Shown: positions 14,620-23,844 of the stretch, piece after piece
Layout: each line of letters begins with the position of its first letter
How positions within the stretch are numbered: the stretch's first letter is position 1
Assembly (NCBI GenBank): GCA_934589065.1
Contig: CAKTNN010000027.1
Coordinates: 1 to 30,238 of the forward strand
From: an uncultured Oscillospiraceae bacterium
GTDB lineage: Bacteria; Bacillota; Clostridia; Oscillospirales; Oscillospiraceae
Length of the DNA stretch: 30,238 nucleotides
Reading direction: 5' to 3'
Translations under genes and position numbers: made by a program
The notes under the pieces: model-generated
Seen by the model: the letters and a program-made list of their open reading frames with translations, nothing else
Databases searched by the model: none
What the model was told of the DNA's origin: nothing

Positions 14620-14816
14620 GTCATTGCGCACCGGTGCTGCGGCACCGGTGCGCAATTCGGGCGCGGAGATACGTATCGACCGCCGCAAGAAGATTCCCCC
14701 TTCGTCATTGCGAACCAGCGCGCACGCTGGTGTGGCAATCCCGGGCGCGGAGATACGTATCGACCGCCGCAAGGCGGCTCTCAGCGCGAGTAGTGCGCGC
14801 TGCCTCGGAATGACAC
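14620..14816. repeat. REP-like repeat cluster (GTCATTGCG family) with a 32-bp direct repeat
   Basis: This cluster occupies most of the 14609-14917 gap. GTCATTGCG occurs at 14620-14628 and 14704-14712, and GGAATGACAC near 14807-14816 reads as its inverted partner. A perfect 14-bp hairpin lies at 14624-14637/14642-14655 (TGCG loop) and a 7-bp hairpin at 14714-14720/14725-14731. A 32-bp stretch is perfectly repeated at 14658-14689 and 14742-14773. No reading frame is supported. GTCATTGCGA-type palindromic repeats are known as dispersed intergenic repeats in many bacteria; a related copy is at 22843-22883. Confidence 0.85.
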
Positions 14817-14917
14817 ACCTTTTGCAGCAATCCTAATTTCCGCCAAGGGGAATATGCCCCAAAATGTATATAAAATACGCAAATCGATACAGTTCTATCG
14901 TTTTCTTTGTTTTTTGA

Positions 14918-14946
14918 TTGACTTTCTTCCAAAGCATCCCTATAAT
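14918..14946 (+). promoter_or_regulatory. sigma-A promoter of the cobalamin-riboswitch operon
   Basis: TTGACT (14918-14923), a 17-base spacer, TATAAT (14941-14946). Transcription should begin around 14953, just upstream of the riboswitch. It is near consensus, so control is expected mainly through the RNA leader. Confidence 0.92.
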
Positions 14947-14971
14947 GGGGGCAGCAAGAAGAAACAATCAT

Positions 14972-15140
14972 ATCCGGCAGCCCTGCCCTGAATTCAGGCG
15001 GGCTTTAAACGGGAATACGGTGAAAATCCGTGGCAGCCCACTTTACTGTGAAGGCGACGCTTCTGCCAATACGCCATTGCTCCTGCGGGGGCGAGAAGGC
15101 GGCAAAAGCGGACGACCCTGAGCCAGGAGACCGACCGGAC
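14972..15140 (+). promoter_or_regulatory. cobalamin (B12) riboswitch aptamer
   Basis: The conserved core is visible in order. The GGGAATACGGTGAAAATCCG block is at 15011-15030, the GCAGCCCACTTTACTGTGA block at 15033-15051, and the B12-box AGCCAGGAGACC at 15121-15132. Segments around 14973-14977 and 15135-15139 (TCCGG/CCGGA) can pair as P1. This class binds adenosylcobalamin or other cobalamins and normally represses downstream genes when B12 is plentiful. It is followed by a terminator at 15272 and then a transporter operon. The exact 5' and 3' borders are estimates. Confidence 0.93.
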
Positions 15141-15149
15141 AATGAGCAT

Positions 15150-15250
15150 ATATGCTTCTCGGCGGGGAGAAGCGTATTTCTGCAAAGTAACGGCAGCGGC
15201 CTGCACCAGGCCGGTGCTGCTGTGGCTGCGCTCCAACAGATTCTTGTCTG
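15150..15250 (+). promoter_or_regulatory. structured leader between aptamer and terminator
   Basis: This 130-base region between the B12 box and the terminator holds no gene. It contains an 11-bp stem (ATATGCTTCTC/GAGAAGCGTAT with one G-T pair, about 15150-15177) and a second hairpin around GGCCT/AGGCC (15199-15213) flanked by CAGC/GCTG. These may belong to the expression platform, with one pairing alternative to the terminator stem. I could not identify a unique antiterminator by eye. Confidence 0.5.
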
Positions 15251-15271
15251 TATGCTCTTTCGGCACATCTG

Positions 15272-15304
15272 GCAGCGACCCGTCTACGGGCCGCTGCTTT
15301 TTTT
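15272..15304 (+). terminator. riboswitch-controlled intrinsic terminator
   Basis: GCAGCG/CGCTGC and CCCG/CGGG form one stem (15272-15297) with an A/C mismatch and a TCTA loop, followed by seven T (15298-15304). It ends 49 bp before the binding-protein start and is the natural 'off' state of the cobalamin riboswitch. Confidence 0.88.
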
Positions 15305-15353
15305 GCGGAATGTTTGATTTCTAAAGGCTGATAACAAGAAAGGAATGATAAGC

Positions 15354-16979
15354 ATGACAAGAAAACCCATTTTCCGTCTGCTGGCGCTGGTCTGCGTCCT
15401 TGCCGTCTTCTTTGGCGGCTGCGGCGCTGCACAGACTGTGGAAACCACCGCAGCAGCAACCCAGGCTACGGAAACCCAGGCAGCCGAAACCCAGGCGCCG
15501 GAAATTGACCAGACGCGAGAAATCGTATTTGCAGCCTCCAGAGATCAGTGCCCCGGTGAAGAGGACGCCCACTATGCATCCATGACCCTGGGTATCTGGG
15601 AGCCCCTGATTACCAAGGACGAAAGCGGCAAGCCCGCTCCTGCACTGGCAACGGACTGGTCCCACAATGACGAATGCACCGTGTGGACCTTCCACCTGCG
15701 TCAGGGCGTCAACTTCTCCAACGGCGTTCCCTTTAATGCCGACGCCGTTCTGGCAAACTTTGACCGCATGAAGAAGGGCCCCTTCGATTCCTCCTTCTAC
15801 GGCATCAACATTGACACGGACTATCCCGGTCTGGTTTCCTACGAGAAGACCGACGACTACACCATCGTGCTGACCTTCAGCGATCCCCTGCCCCTGCAGG
15901 ATTATACCATGGTCAACTACGGTTCCTGCATCTTTGAGCCCTCCTGCTTTGCCGAGGACGGCAATTTCAACGGCTTTGCCATCGGCACCGGCCCTTATGT
16001 TGTAAAAGAAAATGTGCTGGGCCAGTACTGCGTCATTGAGCGCAACGACAACTATTGGGACGAGCCCGCCATTGCCCAGACCATCCGCTTCAAGGTCATC
16101 CCGGATGCCGACACCCGGTATGCCGCCCTGCGGGCCGGTGAAGTTCAGGGTCTGTGCGATTTGGGCGCAATCTCCCCCTCCCAGGCAGCGGAAATTGACG
16201 GAGATCCTGCCTACACCGTTACTCTGGGCACCTCCGGCATCACCCATTTCCTGAACGTAAACGGCGGCGGCTTCCCCTTCAACGATCTGCGGATGCGTCA
16301 GGGCCTGTCTCTGCTCATCGACCGTCAGACCATTATCGACAGCTTCTTCAACGGCTACAATCTGCCCGCCGGCGGTTTCCTGAGCTACAGCTCCCCCTTC
16401 TATGAGGAGCAGCCCGTTCAGCACGATGCCGAAAAGGGCGCCGAGCTCATCCGTGAAGTGGTAGGCGACCAGGCTGTGGAGCTGCGGTTCCTGCTGCCCA
16501 ATGTGGATGCAAACCGCTATCCCTACCAGGAAGAGGCGGAATACATCCAGGCTCTGCTGGAGAATATCGACGGAACCAACATCAAGGTGAACATCGAGCT
16601 CATGGATTGGGGCCCCTGCAAGGAAGAGATGGCGGCAGGCAACTACAATATGTGCCTGAAGATTCAGGGCTTGCCCTCTGCCAACCCCTTCTCCCTGTTC
16701 AACAGCTTTATGGGAAGCTCCGGCAGCACCAACAAGAATTACGGTCTGGGCTACAGCAACCCCGAGGTGGATGCCCTTCTGACAGAGGCAAAGGATACCC
16801 TGGATGCAAACCATCTGGCGGAAATCTACAACCAGCTGCAGGAAATCTCCGCAGCGGATCTGCCCAACATTCCTGTTATGTACTCCCAGGAGGTTGCGGC
16901 CTGCTCCAGTGACATCACCGGCTACGAGGCCACCGTATACGGCCTGACCGGCTATACCCAGGTTCGCTGGGCGAAGTAA
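15354..16979 (+). CDS. ABC transporter solute-binding lipoprotein, family 5 (Nik/Dpp/Opp type)
   Basis: 541 residues from the ATG at 15354, preceded by AAAGGA; an ATG at 15345 sits directly on that site. The signal peptide ends in a lipobox FGGC (Cys about 22), followed by a Thr/Ala/Glu/Gln-rich flexible linker (about 27-48). The mature domain is full length for family 5, with hallmarks such as TFHLRQGVNFSNGVPFNADA, GTGPYVV and NDNYWDEPA. The family captures peptides, nickel, metal chelates or heme. The cobalamin riboswitch upstream points to cobalt, a cobalt chelate or a corrinoid precursor, but no ligand-specific residue could be assigned. It has an unusual number of cysteines for this family. 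Confidence 0.92.
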   Translation: MTRKPIFRLLALVCVLAVFFGGCGAAQTVETTAAATQATETQAAETQAPEIDQTREIVFAASRDQCPGEEDAHYASMTLGIWEPLITKDESGKPAPALATDWSHNDECTVWTFHLRQGVNFSNGVPFNADAVLANFDRMKKGPFDSSFYGINIDTDYPGLVSYEKTDDYTIVLTFSDPLPLQDYTMVNYGSCIFEPSCFAEDGNFNGFAIGTGPYVVKENVLGQYCVIERNDNYWDEPAIAQTIRFKVIPDADTRYAALRAGEVQGLCDLGAISPSQAAEIDGDPAYTVTLGTSGITHFLNVNGGGFPFNDLRMRQGLSLLIDRQTIIDSFFNGYNLPAGGFLSYSSPFYEEQPVQHDAEKGAELIREVVGDQAVELRFLLPNVDANRYPYQEEAEYIQALLENIDGTNIKVNIELMDWGPCKEEMAAGNYNMCLKIQGLPSANPFSLFNSFMGSSGSTNKNYGLGYSNPEVDALLTEAKDTLDANHLAEIYNQLQEISAADLPNIPVMYSQEVAACSSDITGYEATVYGLTGYTQVRWAK

Positions 16980-16987
16980 GCATACGG

Positions 16988-17026
16988 AAAGCCCCGGCAG
17001 CGATTTTCTTCGTTCCGGGGCTTTTT
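16988..17026 (+). terminator. hairpin with T tract between binding protein and permease genes
   Basis: A 10-bp stem AAAGCCCCGG/CCGGGGCTTT (16988-16997, 17015-17024) with a 17-nt loop and a T run (17022-17026). It lies 8 bp after the binding-protein stop. It probably works as a partial terminator or 3' mRNA stabiliser, giving more binding protein than membrane components. This is common in ABC operons. Confidence 0.8.
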
Positions 17027-17049
17027 CTATAATAGGAGTGAAGCACTGT

Positions 17050-18003
17050 ATGCCGGTAGTAAAATACATTGTCAAGCGGCTGCTTGTTATGATTCCGGTG
17101 CTGCTGGGAATCTCCCTGGCGGCCTTCCTTCTGGGACACATTGCCCCGGGAGATCCGGTGGACGATGCTCTGGCGCGGATCGGCGTTGAGTTCCCCACCG
17201 AGGAAGACCGGGCGGAAATGCGGGCCAAGCTGGGGCTTGATCAAAGCCTGCCCAACCAGTATCTTTCCTGGCTGAGCCGGGTCGTCCGGGGGGATCTGGG
17301 AAATTCCTACTATAACAATAAAGATATTGCCAAAGAATTTGGGGCGCGCTTCCCCATCACGCTGAAGCTCTCCCTTTCCGCCCTTTTCACGGCGGTTCTT
17401 CTGGGCGTAGGCGGCGGCGTGCTGATGGCAGCCTTCCGGGGGAGCTGGCTGGATAAGCTTCTGCGAAGTATTTCCACCCTGCTGCTGTCCATCCCCGGAT
17501 TCTGGCTGGCTCTGTTTTTAATCACGGTCTTTGCCGAGCAGCTCCACTGGCTTCCCACCAGCGGACTGGACCGGGGAGCGGCTTCCCTGGTGCTGCCGTC
17601 TCTTGCCTTGGCGGCAGCCAATGTGGGCATGACCTCCCGACTGGTTCGGGGCAACGTGATTGCCCAGCTGGGGGAGCAGTACATTCTGGTTGCCAACGCC
17701 AAAGGGCTGCCCCAGCGGGTCGTGGTTCTGGGCCACGCTCTGCGGAACTCTCTGGTACCCATCATTACCATGATCGGCAACTACTTTGGGGGGATTCTGG
17801 GCGGCAGCACCATTATCGAAACGATTTTTGCCATTCCCGGTATGGGCAGCTATGTGCTCAGCGCCATCCAGAACCGGGATTACCCGGTGATTCAGGGCTA
17901 TGTTCTGATTACGGGTGCAACCTTTGTTCTCATTAACCTGGCAATTGACCTGCTCTACATTGCAGCAGACCCCAAAATTCGGGTGGGAGGTGGCGCGCAA
18001 TGA
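17050..18003 (+). CDS. ABC transporter permease, NikB/DppB type
   Basis: 317 residues from the ATG at 17050 behind AGGAG; a GTG at 17038 overlaps that site. The start VVKYIVKRLLVMIPVLLGIS with HIAPGDP soon after is the standard N-terminus of DppB/NikB permeases. About six membrane segments follow. The EAA-type loop is VANAKGLPQRVVVLGHALRN, and the end has TIIETIFAIPGMGSYVLSAI. It forms half of the channel with the next gene, which it overlaps by ATGA. Confidence 0.93.
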   Translation: MPVVKYIVKRLLVMIPVLLGISLAAFLLGHIAPGDPVDDALARIGVEFPTEEDRAEMRAKLGLDQSLPNQYLSWLSRVVRGDLGNSYYNNKDIAKEFGARFPITLKLSLSALFTAVLLGVGGGVLMAAFRGSWLDKLLRSISTLLLSIPGFWLALFLITVFAEQLHWLPTSGLDRGAASLVLPSLALAAANVGMTSRLVRGNVIAQLGEQYILVANAKGLPQRVVVLGHALRNSLVPIITMIGNYFGGILGGSTIIETIFAIPGMGSYVLSAIQNRDYPVIQGYVLITGATFVLINLAIDLLYIAADPKIRVGGGAQ

Positions 18004-18836
18004 CCATCCGGAAAAAGCAAAACCTGCGTCTGGCCCTGTCCGGCGGGTTGCTGCTGCTGATTCTTTTCATGACCGTATTTGCCCCCTGGCTTGCCCCCTG
18101 CGACCCGACGGAAATTGACATGACAAACCGTCTGGCAGCCCCCGGCCCTGGGCACCTGCTGGGAACGGACGCCCTGGGCCGGGATGTGCTCAGCAGGGTT
18201 ATCTACGGCGGGCGGGCCTCCCTGCTGCTGGCTGTGATTGCAACCAGCTGCTCTATGGCCCTGGGGCTCATGATCGGTCTGGCGGCAGGCTACTGCGGCG
18301 GAATTGTGGACGGGATCATCACCGCCATCTCCAACATCTTCCAGGGTCTTCCGGGAACCATTATGATGATCGCCCTGGTGGGCATTTTGGGTTCCAACAC
18401 CGGCTCCATCGTCCTGGCGCTGGTTCTAACCTCCTGGGTGGGCTTTTCCAGGCTTGTCCGGGGTGAGGTGATGCAGGTAAAGCAGGAGCTCTATATTGAA
18501 GGAACCCGCTGCCTGGGCGCCGGACACTGGCGCATCATTCTGCGGCACATTCTCCCCAATATCCGCTCAAACTGCATCATTCTCTTTACCACCCGGGTGG
18601 GCCGCGTGGTGCTCAGCGTGGCGGGCCTCAGCTATCTGGGGCTGGGAATTCAGCCGCCCACGCCGGACTGGGGAGAAATGATCAGCGGCAGCGCCCGGCG
18701 GTATTTCCGCAGTGCCCCCCATTTGCTGTGGGCGCCGGGAATCTGCATCATTCTTCTGACCCTGTCCATCAACCAGCTCGGCGACGCTCTGCGGGATCGG
18801 CTGGATGTAAAGCAGGACGCAGTAAAGGAGCTGTAG
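18000..18836 (+). CDS. ABC transporter permease, NikC/DppC type
   Basis: 278 residues; the ATG overlaps the preceding stop by four bases. The family pattern HLLGTDALGRDVLSRVIYGG near residues 52-71 is diagnostic of the NikC/DppC class. The EAA loop GTRCLGAGHWRIILRHILPN contacts the ATPases, and LSYLGLGIQPPTPDWGEMIS is the conserved C-terminal block. Several membrane helices are present. It pairs with the previous permease; the ATPase genes follow 1 bp later. Confidence 0.93.
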   Translation: MTIRKKQNLRLALSGGLLLLILFMTVFAPWLAPCDPTEIDMTNRLAAPGPGHLLGTDALGRDVLSRVIYGGRASLLLAVIATSCSMALGLMIGLAAGYCGGIVDGIITAISNIFQGLPGTIMMIALVGILGSNTGSIVLALVLTSWVGFSRLVRGEVMQVKQELYIEGTRCLGAGHWRIILRHILPNIRSNCIILFTTRVGRVVLSVAGLSYLGLGIQPPTPDWGEMISGSARRYFRSAPHLLWAPGICIILLTLSINQLGDALRDRLDVKQDAVKEL

Positions 18837-18837
18837 T

Positions 18838-19779
18838 ATGACCCAGGACATTCAAATTGAAGACCTCAACGTCTATTTTGAAACCGCCTCCGGACCGGTT
18901 TACGCAGTAAAAAATCTCTCTACCACCTTTCACGCCGGAAAAATTTCCGGGGTGATTGGGGAAAGCGGCAGCGGAAAAAGCGTTATGGGTATGTCTATTT
19001 TGCGGCTGCTCCCCAATACCGCCCGTGTCACCGGGAAGTGCTTTTTCGGTGACCAAGAACTTTACGCCCTGCCCCTGCGCCAGCTGCGCAAGCTCCGCGG
19101 AAAACAAATTGGCCTGATCCCTCAGAACCCCAATGCCTCCCTGGATCCGGTTATGAAGGTGAAGCGGCAATTTGTGGAGGCCGTCACCGCCCACACAAGC
19201 CTTTCCCGCCGGAATGCCGCCCAGGATGCCGGTGCCCTTTTGGAGCAGTTTGGCTTTACGGACGCCGGAGCGATTCTGGACCGGTATTCCTTTCAGATGA
19301 GCGGCGGCATGAACCAGCGTCTGGTATCCGCCCTGGGGCTTATTAATCAACCCGGCTGGGTCATTGCGGATGAGCCCACCAAGGGGCTGGATGCCCCCCT
19401 GCGGAATCAGGTCTACCGGGTTCTGCGCCAGATTTACCGGAAAAACCACAGCAGCATGATCCTCATCACCCATGATTTGCTGCTGGCGCGGCAGCTGTGC
19501 GACGACATCCGGGTGATGTATCAGGGGCAAATCGTAGAGCAGGGAGATGCCCGGGCCGTTATTGATGCCCCCAAGCATCCCTATACCGCGGGGCTGGTAG
19601 GCTCTCTTCCCAGCCGTGGGATGCACCCCATTCCCCTGCCTGACCCAAAATGCGAAGGGCATTCCGGCTGCCCCTTCTATCCCCGATGTGAAAAAGCCAC
19701 TGCCGGGTGTGCGGAACACCCCCCGGGAGAGGTCACGCTCCCGGATGGGAGAAAGGTGAGGTGCCGACTGTATGGATAA
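18838..19779 (+). CDS. ABC transporter ATP-binding protein, DppD/NikD type
   Basis: 313 residues. Walker A GESGSGKS at 41-48, Q-loop in LIPQNPNASLDP, signature MSGGM at 154-158 (the last residue differs from the usual Q), Walker B WVIADE at 174-179 and ITHDLL H-loop. The C-terminal oligopeptide/dipeptide-transporter extension carries a Cys cluster (CPFYPRCEKATAGC plus an upstream Cys), as in DppD/OppD proteins. It energises import with the next ATPase, with which it overlaps by 8 bp. Confidence 0.93.
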   Translation: MTQDIQIEDLNVYFETASGPVYAVKNLSTTFHAGKISGVIGESGSGKSVMGMSILRLLPNTARVTGKCFFGDQELYALPLRQLRKLRGKQIGLIPQNPNASLDPVMKVKRQFVEAVTAHTSLSRRNAAQDAGALLEQFGFTDAGAILDRYSFQMSGGMNQRLVSALGLINQPGWVIADEPTKGLDAPLRNQVYRVLRQIYRKNHSSMILITHDLLLARQLCDDIRVMYQGQIVEQGDARAVIDAPKHPYTAGLVGSLPSRGMHPIPLPDPKCEGHSGCPFYPRCEKATAGCAEHPPGEVTLPDGRKVRCRLYG

Positions 19780-20563
19780 CCTGATGGAAATACGCCACGT
19801 AAGCAAGGATTTTTCCCACGGCGTTTTTCGTCCCTCGGTGACTCACGCCGTAAAGGATGTCAGTTTTTCTCTGGAACGGGGAAAAACCTTCGGCCTGGTA
19901 GGGGGCAGCGGCTGCGGAAAGACCACGCTGACAAGAATGATTTCCGGGCTTCTTTCCCCCACCTCCGGGCAGATCCTTCTAAACGGAAAGGATATCACCG
20001 GTCTTACCGGCGCCGCGCGGAAGCACTACCACCGCCAGGTACAGGTGGTTTTTCAGAATCCAGAGGCTTCTCTCGACCCCACTATGCGGATTCGGGACAG
20101 CCTTCTGGAAGCCCTGGAAATTCACGGCATCGGAAGCAGCAAAGACGAACGGATGGATCGCATCCTGGAAAAGCTGAAGCTGGTGGCCCTGCCGGACTAT
20201 CTTCTGGACCGCCACCCCCACCAGATCAGCGGCGGGGAGGGGCAGCGGCTGGTGATTTGCCGGGCGCTGCTGCTGGAGCCGGAAATTCTGCTGCTGGACG
20301 AGCCCACCTCCATGCTGGATGTATCCGTGCAGGCCCACATCATGAATATCCTGCAGCGGCTACAGCAGGAGCTGGGCCTGACCTACCTGTTTATCACCCA
20401 CGATATTGAACTTTTGGGCTGGATCAGCCACCGTATCGGCGTCATGTATCAGGGGCAGCTGGTGGAGGCCGGCCCCAGAGATCAGATTATGGAGCACCCA
20501 AGTAACGCCTATACCCAGGGGCTTTTATCCGCCTTCCGGGACTGGGACAAGGAGTACACATGA
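19772..20563 (+). CDS. ABC transporter ATP-binding protein, DppF/NikE type
   Basis: 263 residues. Walker A GGSGCGKT at 44-51, Q-loop in VVFQNPEASLDP, signature ISGGEGQR, Walker B ILLLDEPTSMLD, and ITHDIELL. It is shorter than DppF because the C-terminal Cys extension is missing, which fits the NikE class. The gene overlaps both neighbours (8 bp upstream, ATGA downstream), so five of the six operon genes are tightly coupled. Confidence 0.93.
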   Translation: MDNLMEIRHVSKDFSHGVFRPSVTHAVKDVSFSLERGKTFGLVGGSGCGKTTLTRMISGLLSPTSGQILLNGKDITGLTGAARKHYHRQVQVVFQNPEASLDPTMRIRDSLLEALEIHGIGSSKDERMDRILEKLKLVALPDYLLDRHPHQISGGEGQRLVICRALLLEPEILLLDEPTSMLDVSVQAHIMNILQRLQQELGLTYLFITHDIELLGWISHRIGVMYQGQLVEAGPRDQIMEHPSNAYTQGLLSAFRDWDKEYT

Positions 20564-21393
20564 AAGAATTGGCACAATTTCAAAGTTTTGATCAGCTATG
20601 GCGGGAGCACGTAACCTGCAGCGAGCTGCCCCGGATGCACGATGACCAAATCGAGCAGGACTTTTGGCAGCAGTTTATGGCAAAGAAAACGGGCTTTGCC
20701 CCAAGCGTTTCCTCCCGGCAGGTAGTATCCCGCTTCCTGCTGCCTAAATTGCAGGAATATGGTATAGAAACCGCCTTGGAATGGGGCCCCGGATGGGGGA
20801 ACTATACCATTCCCCTGGCAAAAAGCTGCCGCCAGGTAGACTGTGTGGATATCTCCCGGGATGTTCTTTCCTTCCTCCAAAAAATCGGGCGTGAAGAAGG
20901 CTGTGAGAATATCCGCTTGATTCAGTCCAAATGGGAGGACTACCAGCCGGAACGCACCTACGACCTGGTGTTTGGCTATAACTGCTTTTACCGCCAGGCA
21001 GACCTTGCGGCGTGTCTTCTGAAAATGAACCGGGCCGCTAAAAAGCTGTGCGTTGCAGGGATGGACAGCGGCCTTGCCCCCATCTGGACCCGGGAGCTGG
21101 CTCAGGCCGGTATGCCCAACAGCTGGGAATGGAAGGACTATCCCTATTTTGCAGGAACACTCTACCAGCTGGGGATTTTCGCCAACGTGACGGTTCTCCC
21201 CTACGAGCAGGTGTACACTTACAAAAATACCGAAGAGCTCCTGCAGGCCGAATGCAGCCCCTGGGCCCAGGAACCCCGGCTGCAGGAAAAAGCAATGGAG
21301 ATTCTCGGCAGGCATTTTACCCGGCTCCCCGACGGCAGCTGGCAGGGGAAAACCCAGTACCACAGCGGGATAGTCTGGTGGACGCCCGTCTGA
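20560..21393 (+). CDS. class I SAM-dependent methyltransferase-fold protein in the B12-riboswitch transporter operon
   Basis: 277 residues, starting within the stop of the NikE-like ATPase (ATGA). The SAM-binding motif I is ALEWGPGWGN at about 72-81, followed by VDCVDISRDVLSF (motif II, acidic residue about 97) and DLVFGYNCFY (motif III/IV region), with a Rossmann-type methyltransferase order. No signal peptide or membrane segment is visible, so it is cytoplasmic. It is not a known corrin-ring methylase by the motifs I can see (no CobA/CbiL-type GAGPGDP pattern). It may modify the imported compound, release a bound metal, or help make a metal-binding molecule. The coupling to the transporter argues for a role in the same pathway. 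The substrate is unknown. Confidence 0.8.
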   Translation: MKELAQFQSFDQLWREHVTCSELPRMHDDQIEQDFWQQFMAKKTGFAPSVSSRQVVSRFLLPKLQEYGIETALEWGPGWGNYTIPLAKSCRQVDCVDISRDVLSFLQKIGREEGCENIRLIQSKWEDYQPERTYDLVFGYNCFYRQADLAACLLKMNRAAKKLCVAGMDSGLAPIWTRELAQAGMPNSWEWKDYPYFAGTLYQLGIFANVTVLPYEQVYTYKNTEELLQAECSPWAQEPRLQEKAMEILGRHFTRLPDGSWQGKTQYHSGIVWWTPV

Positions 21394-21460: not shown

Positions 21461-21488
21461 TTGACTTACCACAAAAATCCGGTATAAT
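21461..21488 (+). promoter_or_regulatory. sigma-A promoter of metY
   Basis: TTGACT (21461-21466), a 16-base spacer, TATAAT (21483-21488). The leader to the metY ATG is under 60 bases, too short for a SAM or cobalamin riboswitch, and none was seen. Confidence 0.88.
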
Positions 21489-21546: not shown

Positions 21547-22830
21547 ATGTCTGATTATCGTTTTGAAACTCTGCAGCTCCACGTCGGTCAGGAACAGGCC
21601 GATCCCGCAAGCGACGCCCGTGCAGTTCCCATTTACGCCACCACTTCCTACGTCTTCCACAACTGCCAGCACGCCGCCGACCGTTTCGGTCTGGCAGACG
21701 CCGGCAATATCTACGGACGTCTGACCAACTCCACCCAGGATGTTTTTGAAAAGAGAATCGCCGCTCTGGAAAAGGGCACTGCCGGTTTGGCGGTTGCCTC
21801 CGGCGCAGCAGCCATCACCTATTCCATTCAGGCCCTGGCTACCAAGGGTGAGCACATTGTGGCCCAGAAGACCATCTATGGCGGAACCAGCAACCTGCTG
21901 GCCCACACCCTGCCCCAGTACGGCATTACCACCACCTTTGTGGATGCCCACAACCTTGCAGAGGTAGAATCTGCCATTCAGCCCAATACCAAGGCCATTT
22001 ACATTGAAACCCTGGGCAACCCCAACTCCGATATTCCTGATATTGATGCCATTGCAGACATCGCCCACCGCCACGGCCTGCCCCTGGTGATTGACAACAC
22101 CTTCGGCACCCCCTACCTGATTCGTCCCATTGAGCACGGCGCAGACGTGGTGGTGCACTCCGCCACCAAGTTCATTGGCGGTCACGGCACTACCCTGGGC
22201 GGCATTATCGTGGATGCCGGTACCTTCGACTGGGCCAAGGGCGGACGCTATCCCTGGCTCTCCGAGCCAAACCCCAGCTATCACGGCGTAAAGTTTACCG
22301 AGGCCGCTCCCAATGCTCCCTTTGTTACCTACATCCGGGCAATTCTTCTGCGGGATCAGGGCGCTTGCATCAGCCCCTTTGCCGCATGGCTGCTGCTTCA
22401 GGGCACGGAAACCCTGAGCCTCCGGCTGGAGCGCCACGCCGAAAACACCAAGAAGGTGGTGGAATTCCTGTGCAAGCATCCAAAGGTGGAAAAGGTCAAC
22501 CATCCCAGCCTGCCGGATCACCCCGACCACGCCCTGTATGAAAAGTATTTCCCCAATGGCGGCGCTTCCATCTTCACCATCCAGGTCAAGGGCGGTCGGG
22601 AAGAGGCCTTCAAGTTTGTGGACAATCTGAAGGTATTCTCCCTGCTTGCCAACGTGGCCGATGTGAAGAGCCTGGTTATCCACCCCGCCTCTACCACCCA
22701 TGCCCAGCTGACCGATGAGGAGCTGGCGAACGTGGGCATCTACCAGAACACCGTGCGTCTGTCCATCGGCACAGAGCACATCGACGACATTCTGGAAGAC
22801 CTGAATCAGGCCCTGAACAGCCTGGACTAA
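21547..22830 (+). CDS. metY: O-acetylhomoserine aminocarboxypropyltransferase (sulfhydrylase)
   Basis: 427 residues, full length for the MetY/Cys-Met PLP family. The N-terminus FETLQLHVGQEQADPASDAR with VPIYATTSYVF is characteristic. YGRLTNST holds the PLP-phosphate contacts, VIDNTFGTPY contains the ring-stacking/acidic residue (Asp183), and SATKFIGGHG supplies the Schiff-base lysine (Lys208). It converts O-acetylhomoserine and sulfide to homocysteine in the cytoplasm, the precursor that a B12-dependent or independent methionine synthase methylates. A start at 21547 follows AAAGAGGCAC. It has its own promoter, and a LysR gene follows that may regulate it. Confidence 0.94.
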   Translation: MSDYRFETLQLHVGQEQADPASDARAVPIYATTSYVFHNCQHAADRFGLADAGNIYGRLTNSTQDVFEKRIAALEKGTAGLAVASGAAAITYSIQALATKGEHIVAQKTIYGGTSNLLAHTLPQYGITTTFVDAHNLAEVESAIQPNTKAIYIETLGNPNSDIPDIDAIADIAHRHGLPLVIDNTFGTPYLIRPIEHGADVVVHSATKFIGGHGTTLGGIIVDAGTFDWAKGGRYPWLSEPNPSYHGVKFTEAAPNAPFVTYIRAILLRDQGACISPFAAWLLLQGTETLSLRLERHAENTKKVVEFLCKHPKVEKVNHPSLPDHPDHALYEKYFPNGGASIFTIQVKGGREEAFKFVDNLKVFSLLANVADVKSLVIHPASTTHAQLTDEELANVGIYQNTVRLSIGTEHIDDILEDLNQALNSLD

Positions 22831-22911: not shown

Positions 22912-23844
22912 ATGACTCTACAGCAAATCCGCTACTGCCTGACCATTGCCGAAACCGGTTCTATGAACCATGCCGCCGAGAAGCTGTATGTCACCCAGCC
23001 CGCCCTGACAGGCGCCATTCAGGACCTGGAAACGGAGTTGGGCATTACCATTTTCAACCGAACCAACCGAGGCGTCACCCTGACCAACGAGGGGCGGCGC
23101 TTCCTCCACTATGCCCGGCAGATTTACCAGCAGTATGAGCTGATGGAGCAGGAATATCTCCGGCCCAAGAAGCGGATATTCGGCGTATCCACTCAGCACT
23201 ACTCCTTTGTCACCAAGGCCTTTGTGGAGACGGTGCACCAGTTTGATGCCACCCGGTTTGAATACGCCATCCGGGAGACGAGAACCGTGGATGTCATCCA
23301 CGATGTAGCCCAGGGGCGCAGTGCCATCGGCGTTCTCTTCCGCTCCAAGCACAACCGGACGGTGCTGAACAAGCTGCTCAGTGAAAATCGGCTGGAATTT
23401 CACCATCTGATTGACTGCAATGCCTATGTCTACCTATGGCGGGGCCATCCTCTGGCAAACAACGAATCCATTTCCATGGAAGAGCTGTGCTGCTACCCCT
23501 GCCTGTGCTTTGAGCAGGGCGACCAGAGCTCCTCTTACTTTGCAGAGGAAATCCTTTCCGAGCGGGAGTATCCCCAGATGATTCGGGCCACCGACCGGGC
23601 CACCATGCTGAACCTGATGGTGGGGCTCAACGGCTTTACCCTCTGCTCCGGCATTATCTGTGAGGAGCTCAACGGCACGGACTACCTTGCCGTCCCCTAC
23701 CGGGAGGATCGGGACAACCAGAATGCCAAAATGGAAATCGGATACATTTCCCCCAAGAATACCCAACCGGACGAAATCGCCCAGGTCTTCATTCAGGAAA
23801 TGAAAAAATATCTGGAAAACGTACAAACCGGAGCAGCCACTTAA
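22912..23844 (+). CDS. LysR-family transcriptional regulator
   Basis: 310 residues. The winged HTH is at the N-terminus (about 1-60): CLTIAETGSMNHAAEKLYVT QPALTGAIQDLE-like order with the LGITIFNRTNRGVTLTNEG wing. A periplasmic-binding-protein-like effector domain (about 90-300) follows. The ATG at 22912 has AAGGAGAAAA upstream. It follows metY in the same orientation, 81 bp away across a REP hairpin. Control of sulfur or methionine genes, as by CysB/MetR-type LysR proteins, is plausible but not shown by the sequence. Confidence 0.9.
   Translation: MTLQQIRYCLTIAETGSMNHAAEKLYVTQPALTGAIQDLETELGITIFNRTNRGVTLTNEGRRFLHYARQIYQQYELMEQEYLRPKKRIFGVSTQHYSFVTKAFVETVHQFDATRFEYAIRETRTVDVIHDVAQGRSAIGVLFRSKHNRTVLNKLLSENRLEFHHLIDCNAYVYLWRGHPLANNESISMEELCCYPCLCFEQGDQSSSYFAEEILSEREYPQMIRATDRATMLNLMVGLNGFTLCSGIICEELNGTDYLAVPYREDRDNQNAKMEIGYISPKNTQPDEIAQVFIQEMKKYLENVQTGAAT

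Follow-up and report, generated by a model that had tools for sequence, protein, structure and literature searches.

Positions 14918-21393 of a 30,238-nt stretch of DNA (contig CAKTNN010000027.1, assembly GCA_934589065.1; hereafter the window, to which positions refer) hold a cobalamin (vitamin B12) riboswitch followed by the five genes of a Nik/Dpp-type ATP-binding cassette (ABC) importer and a gene for an S-adenosylmethionine (SAM)-dependent methyltransferase. From its sequence and the company its genes keep elsewhere, we favor, with some confidence, reading this locus as a B12-repressed cobalt-acquisition operon that carries a ligand-modifying methyltransferase. That the cargo is cobalt appears likely, a claim we hold a little more firmly than the reading as a whole; that the methyltransferase methylates a cobalt ligand is a tentative proposal. 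Riboswitch-controlled Nik importers are already known, and the new part of the locus is the methyltransferase, its more novel and more widespread component.

The riboswitch is clear. An earlier note, made from the letters of this DNA alone, had recognized a B12 aptamer, and a covariance-model search of the window bears this out with a match to RF00174 at 101.3 bits (E 1.6e-24), well over the gathering score of 31.5 and the sole Rfam match at gathering score within the window. The promoter, intrinsic terminator, and six genes that the note placed around it are all present (Table 1). Promoter-like sites in the region barely outnumber those in shuffled sequence (4 versus 3.2), so the promoter's weight lies in the quality of its match and its place before the aptamer. 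The terminator rests on folding, because a consensus terminator scan left the stem at about 15272-15297 unlisted. The leader thus appears laid out as a transcription-terminating OFF switch: plentiful cobalamin would allow the terminator to form and silence the operon, whereas B12 scarcity would let transcription read through into it. Just upstream of the promoter, positions 14620-14830 form a repetitive GC-rich intergenic stretch with near-repeats (gcgcggagatacgtatcgaccgccgcaag twice).

The six genes are co-directional and tightly packed (successive gaps +58, -4, +1, -8, -4), and by Pfam the importer gene set is complete, with SBP_bac_5, two BPD_transp_1 permeases, and two ABC ATPases. The earlier note's run of overlapping genes from permease to methyltransferase stands as to the overlap but not the partner, as the methyltransferase gene overlaps that of the second ATPase, not a permease. 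A hairpin after the binding-protein gene, within which a terminator scan lists a terminator-like site at 17008-17020, may raise the level of the binding protein above that of the proteins encoded downstream. The next gene, metY (O-acetylhomoserine sulfhydrylase), begins at 21547 and has its own promoter-like site at 21461-21488, which makes the methyltransferase gene most probably the last of the operon.

Table 1. Features of the B12-controlled locus in the window.
Feature	Position	Strand	Evidence
Sigma-70/A-type promoter, TTGACT-17-TATAAT	14918..14946	+	11/12 consensus positions
Cobalamin riboswitch aptamer, RF00174	14959..15153	+	101.3 bits, full model 1-189
Candidate anti-terminator 5' arm	15193..15201	+	Perfect complement of terminator 3' arm 15289-15297
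Intrinsic terminator hairpin and seven T	15271..15304 (stem about 15272-15297)	+	Folding, -19.5 kcal/mol
Family 5 substrate-binding lipoprotein (SBP_bac_5), own clade	15345..16979	+	PF00496, 248 bits
Hairpin with T run between binding protein and first permease	16986..17026	+	-27.1 kcal/mol
Permease, NikB/OppB type	17038..18003	+	Opp2B, 332.9 bits (cut-off 350)
Permease, NikC/OppC type	18000..18836	+	NCBIfam and Pfam matches
ATPase, OppD/NikD type with oligo_HPY	18838..19779	+	NCBIfam and Pfam matches
ATPase, OppF/NikE type	19772..20563	+	NCBIfam and Pfam matches
Class I SAM-dependent methyltransferase, motifs GPGWGNYT and NCFYR	20560..21393	+	Methyltransf_25 match

By its motifs and predicted fold, the methyltransferase is a class I SAM-dependent enzyme: the GxGxG motif and the acidic residue of motif II are intact, and the AlphaFold2 (AF2) model, with a predicted local distance difference test (pLDDT) score of 93.6, has the class I fold. 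We searched one genome per species for relatives with a 36-row alignment and the motifs GPGWGNYT and NCFYR, confirmed 154 places, and analyzed the best 80 of these (L001-L080). The pattern [NST]C[FYL]YR occurs in 79 of the 80 rows, a conservation that is partly built in because relatives were found through those motifs. Neighbors were typed by BLAST against a small hand-picked reference set, plus reading. Of the 80 loci, 35 have a same-strand cobalamin riboswitch upstream; six of these (L039, L045, L046, L052, L056, L078) come from model R1 alone, and L046, L052, and L078 are weaker cases because the riboswitch lies 5.6-7 kb from the methyltransferase (L046, L078) or opposite-strand open reading frames (ORFs) were called in between (L052).

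The co-occurrence of riboswitch and methyltransferase in homologous operons, which the earlier note had suggested scoring, was complete among the 17 Clostridial Nik/Dpp-type loci of the best 80, all of which have a same-strand RF00174 match upstream, at the operon head. Four Nik/Dpp-type loci from Bacilli, three of them with a riboswitch upstream, have a binding protein from a different clade (23-26% identity). Fec/Btu-type importers accompany the methyltransferase in another 17 loci, 8 with an upstream riboswitch (in L029 only an ATPase gene was recognized). Cobalamin-biosynthesis genes surround it in 17 more, six of which also have a Fec-type importer; a riboswitch lies upstream in two of these six and in none of the other 11, in clusters whose operon heads may fall beyond the 10 kb fetched (the riboswitch of L066 lies 2.1 kb outside). 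Two loci, L014 and L034, have a NiCoT permease (PF03824) and both have an upstream riboswitch, a group that was defined after the riboswitch was seen and is possibly one event on the tree. The remaining 23 loci show none of these neighbor types, and three of them have a riboswitch of their own; among those labeled in this way, L040 has a separate Nik-type operon behind a riboswitch and L047 adjoins other-strand genes read as cbiM, cbiQ, and cbiO. Three archaeal loci (L035, on a short contig, L050, and L075) combine a Fec-type importer and the methyltransferase with no riboswitch match. A tree of the enzymes made by a quick method (without L007, whose methyltransferase is cut by the contig end) groups the Clostridial Nik-type enzymes with the Fec-type enzymes of L015, L029, and archaea (22 rows) and gives the Nik rows as one group a support of only 40; the seven neighbor classes require a minimum of 16 label changes on it.

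Some of these loci have further features. In L016, L032, and L044, from Paenibacillus, the Fec-type importer and methyltransferase likewise have no B12 riboswitch match, Fur-family and CobW-type GTPase genes lie nearby, and control may run through a metal repressor. An ArsP_1 permease gene and a DUF1980 gene follow a B12-riboswitch methyltransferase gene at L074:11020-13074, L062 holds a relative from Priestia megaterium, and at L014:5293-5707 a tandem leader, a SAM riboswitch and then a cobalamin riboswitch, precedes a 780-aa gene.

In three Lachnospiraceae-type genomes, the B12-controlled Nik operon ends in a gene that joins a LysR regulator, in frame, to the methyltransferase (L009:9068-10840, L010:8984-10837, L011:9071-10840). 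The fused frames of 590, 617 (L010, counting from the earliest possible start), and 589 residues comprise HTH_1, LysR_substrate, and methyltransferase domains. A protein search with the methyltransferase part of the fusion returned 12 proteins, 9 of which have all three domains. The window's own LysR gene (22912-23844), which sits behind metY, was ruled out as an operon member; its product shares 35% identity over 99 residues with the fused LysR part.

The binding protein has a near-invariant lipobox-type Cys26 and an AF2 pLDDT of 90.2, and its structural matches are close-ranked Nik, Gsi, Dpp, and Opp proteins, with 5u4o first. Among Pfam families PF00496 alone matched, with no match to Peripla_BP_2, the BtuF-type corrinoid binder. 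Its scores lie under every curated NCBIfam cut-off tried: 162.5 bits versus 393 for NikA (TIGR02294), 112.8 versus 800 for CntA (NF047575), 71.3 versus 1005 for DppA, and 92.4 versus 947 for OppA. R97, W100, R137, W398, Y402, and H416, which we take to be the residues holding Ni or its chelate in E. coli NikA, are not kept in an alignment of 53 rows: W100 is replaced by F in 52 and R137 by G in 48, W398 is G in all 53, R97 is kept in one row and Y402 in none, and position 416 is never His. The presumed peptide anchors of DppA, Asp408 and Arg355, are also absent, with Ser and Ala opposite them in a profile alignment read by eye. The lack of both sets of site residues argues against re-using the NikA or DppA cargo assignments, and the protein belongs to a clade of its own.

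These data bear on two other cargoes. The best NCBIfam matches of the binding protein and permeases are to nickel or nickel/cobalt models (NikA, Opp2B at 332.9 bits, and Opp1C at 277.8), a point in favor of a nickel importer that is B12-controlled by chance. However, all three scores fall under their cut-offs (393, 350, and 350), the NikA positions are not kept, and B12 would be an odd control signal for nickel; we consider this explanation improbable. The position of metY would suit an importer of nutrients, for instance methionine-containing peptides, that takes the place of B12-dependent methionine synthesis under B12 scarcity. Such a role seems very improbable to us, as metY has its own promoter-like site, lies directly downstream only in L001 (93% identical DNA) among the 80 loci, and the binding protein matches DppA neither at Asp408 nor by model score.

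We compared by coordinates a clade-profile search (E 1e-60) and a riboswitch search of the 16 host genomes (G001-G016), in some of which only part of the first-look candidates were scored. Binding proteins of at least 550 bits numbered 16, in 15 genomes, and an RF00174 match stands at the head of all 16, whereas the next-best paralogs (205-331 bits) have RF00174 nearby in 0 of 7. The genome with no clade binding protein, G016, has a Fec-type importer at its locus (L015). In 5 of the 16 clade operons, the riboswitch and the binding-protein gene are separated by the methyltransferase gene, and in G005 and G010 the riboswitch lies about 1.1 kb upstream of the binding protein, with an HNH_repeat gene between them in L005. 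This gene (L005:3536-4741) has four HNH_repeat (PF18780) stretches, and similar ORFs occur in L007 and L012, from Flavonifractor-like genomes. Two clade members occur in F. plautii, one of them in a second B12-controlled operon that carries a LysR gene and no methyltransferase.

Markers of B12 biosynthesis are common in the host genomes. CbiD was found in 15 of the 16 host genomes versus 129 of 299 genomes sampled from the phylum (Fisher 9e-5 against 128/298 with the centre genome, G001, left out; rows are not independent) and CbiK in 15 of 16, in 14 of them over its cut-off. Among 19 genomes carrying methyltransferase loci, 18 have CbiD and 15 CbiM. G001, a close relative of the window, has at least seven cobalamin riboswitches, which control a CbiM operon, the window-type operon, a second SBP_5 ABC operon, a MatE gene, a CbiD operon, a CbiK-like gene with a Fec-type importer, and a CbiK operon that also has a SUMT-like gene and, by reading, hem genes. 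As this regulon already contains a CbiM operon and a Fec/Btu-type importer, the window-type route may serve another cargo. In the second SBP_5 operon (L082, G001:C9, riboswitch at record 38584-38763), the binding protein differs (25.6% identity) and the final gene (406 aa) has no Pfam match at E 0.001; the MatE-family gene (L082:1161-2765) directly follows a 61.9-bit cobalamin riboswitch (G001:C9 36594-36805). In L084 (G001:C22), the B12 riboswitch is followed by the CbiK-like gene (PF06180) and then the Peripla_BP_2/FecCD/ATPase importer.

Could the cargo instead be a corrinoid? Such an importer would take up cobinamide, incomplete corrinoids, or cobamides, with the methyltransferase modifying the corrinoid or its lower ligand. 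B12 riboswitches also govern corrinoid uptake, according to passages of PMC7689651 and PMC4285132, the methyltransferase pairs with Fec/Btu-type importers as well, and G011, a draft genome, has the operon and yielded neither CbiD nor CbiK. On the other side, the methyltransferase has NiCoT ion permeases as partners in two loci with a B12 riboswitch, CbiD is present in nearly all host genomes, and the binding protein belongs to family 5 rather than the BtuF-type Peripla_BP_2 family. We therefore regard a corrinoid cargo as unlikely. The earlier note had proposed import of cobalt, a cobalt chelate, or a corrinoid precursor: genomic context favors its cobalt part, and the corrinoid precursor is made less likely by the NiCoT pairing and the B12-biosynthesis marker.

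How far does the pairing with importers extend? We searched 398 genomes of the phylum, drawn evenly and including G001. Counts from these searches are lower bounds because many genomes had candidates only partly scored (in the rows shown, 6 of up to 14 first-look candidates for the methyltransferase profile; 79 of up to 320 for RF00174). The methyltransferase was found at E 1e-20 or better in at least 11 of the 398 genomes, and Nik/Dpp- or Fec-type importer genes adjoin 10 of these 11, or 9 of 10 without the centre genome, as a raw count; L090 is the sole one away from importer genes. Near-copies occur among these loci (L101/L102; L104/L106/L107). Riboswitches were present in the fetched stretches only for G001 and L100. 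Eight distant relatives (77-100 bits) lack NCFYR and in part keep a C-terminal Y-N-x-L-Y-x-x-G stretch. As these stand beside importers without a riboswitch, the importer pairing extends beyond loci under B12 control.

Several observations weigh against a cobalt-acquisition operon. The 5-15 kb stretches fetched for the eight distant relatives show no B12 riboswitch, and within the portion of the sample covered by both searches CbiD occurs in five of eight methyltransferase genomes outside the centre (present in G075, G089, G192, G213, and G242; absent from G034, G132, and G153) versus the 129 of 299 sampled, so that the broad methyltransferase family shows no clear link to B12 synthesis. The missing CbiD and CbiK of G011, the second B12-controlled F. 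plautii copy without a methyltransferase, and the 20 of 80 loci with no recognized importer, B12-biosynthesis neighbor, or riboswitch of their own belong here too. In G001, CbiM and Fec/Btu-type importers are already under B12 control and the window-type operon may carry something else. NiCoT permeases move bare ions, and the NiCoT pairing fits poorly with a purely extracellular chelator.

The methyltransferase might also be a passenger with an unrelated housekeeping role, its neighborhoods the product of operon shuffling. The 23 loci without a recognized metal or B12 gene partner would fit a passenger, though three have their own riboswitch, as would the F. plautii copy that does without the enzyme. 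By contrast, in L041, L068, and L074 the first gene after the riboswitch is that of the methyltransferase, and no importer genes accompany it; the methyltransferase comes first in riboswitch operons at L033, L058, L069, L071, and L073; LysR is fused to it; and importer genes adjoin most sampled relatives. A passenger role thus strikes us as quite unlikely.

Known systems set the limits of what is new here. The staphylococcal Cnt system likewise combines an SBP_5-type importer with a SAM-using enzyme, CntL of the staphylopine system, and CntA is among the structural matches of the binding protein; we treat this as a working analogy. Unlike Cnt, the window operon holds no further biosynthesis gene and its binding protein scores under the CntA cut-off. 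A CntL-like staphylopine enzyme was ruled out, with no such model among the methyltransferase's three NCBIfam matches. E. coli NikABCDE shares gene set, order, and fold with the window operon (23% identity to NikA structures), but the latter lacks the Ni/chelate residues, has a B12 riboswitch, and includes no NikR among its six genes. CbiMNQO, CbtJKL, and BtuFCD mediate cobalt or corrinoid uptake under B12 riboswitches, as passages of PMC7689651 and PMC4285132 indicate, but belong to different transporter families.

Closer precedents exist for the riboswitch and Nik pairing. Portions of PMC2667541 name NikABCDE of Clostridium tetani and Desulfitobacterium hafniense, predicted to lie behind a B12 riboswitch, as exceptions to Ni specificity, and recognize NikA through site residues, the tested ones of which the window binding protein lacks. 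The cobalamin riboswitch of S. ovata (Sporomusa ovata) nikA serves as a functional reporter part in the account given in sections of PMC9600662. L100, from a genome named Desulfitobacterium chlororespirans that holds protein P0219, has the window's layout of RF00174, nikABCDE-type genes, and methyltransferase. Because of these precedents, the pairing is not new, nor is B12 control of a family 5 transporter, which the earlier note took as a candidate new cargo assignment. The portions of PMC2667541 and PMC9600662 that describe these systems do not mention a methyltransferase.

In the cobalt-acquisition reading that we favor, the lipoprotein would, when B12 is scarce, capture Co(II), most probably bound in a small-molecule complex and not in a corrinoid, and the permease pair and ATPases would import the cobalt for the cell's anaerobic B12 synthesis, alongside a CbiM-type importer. 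The NiCoT partners speak for cobalt as the ion or in small complexes rather than in corrinoids. The methyltransferase would N- or otherwise methylate a small cobalt-binding ligand, either making a chelator or releasing or holding cobalt after import; methylation of a small cobalt-carrying ligand is our best guess, given that one enzyme recurs with importers of different kinds. A bolder and considerably more doubtful extension is that the methyltransferase founds a new SAM enzyme family that builds or tunes a cobalt metabolite common to several importers and the B12 pathway, that the fused LysR of Lachnospiraceae senses this metabolite, and that distant relatives serve other metals. If so, Nik/Dpp ABC, Fec/Btu ABC, and NiCoT importers would share the metabolite, and the Lachnospiraceae operon would answer two inputs, B12 through the riboswitch and the cobalt ligand through LysR.

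How cells procure cobalt and hand it over for B12 is incompletely known. The recurrence of the methyltransferase with unrelated transporters, B12 riboswitches, B12-synthesis genes, and a regulator fusion makes it a candidate, open to deletion, for a missing step in how gut and soil Bacillota and some methanogens handle cobalt, and the Nik-type importers of the binding-protein clade would gain a better label than 'peptide/nickel'.

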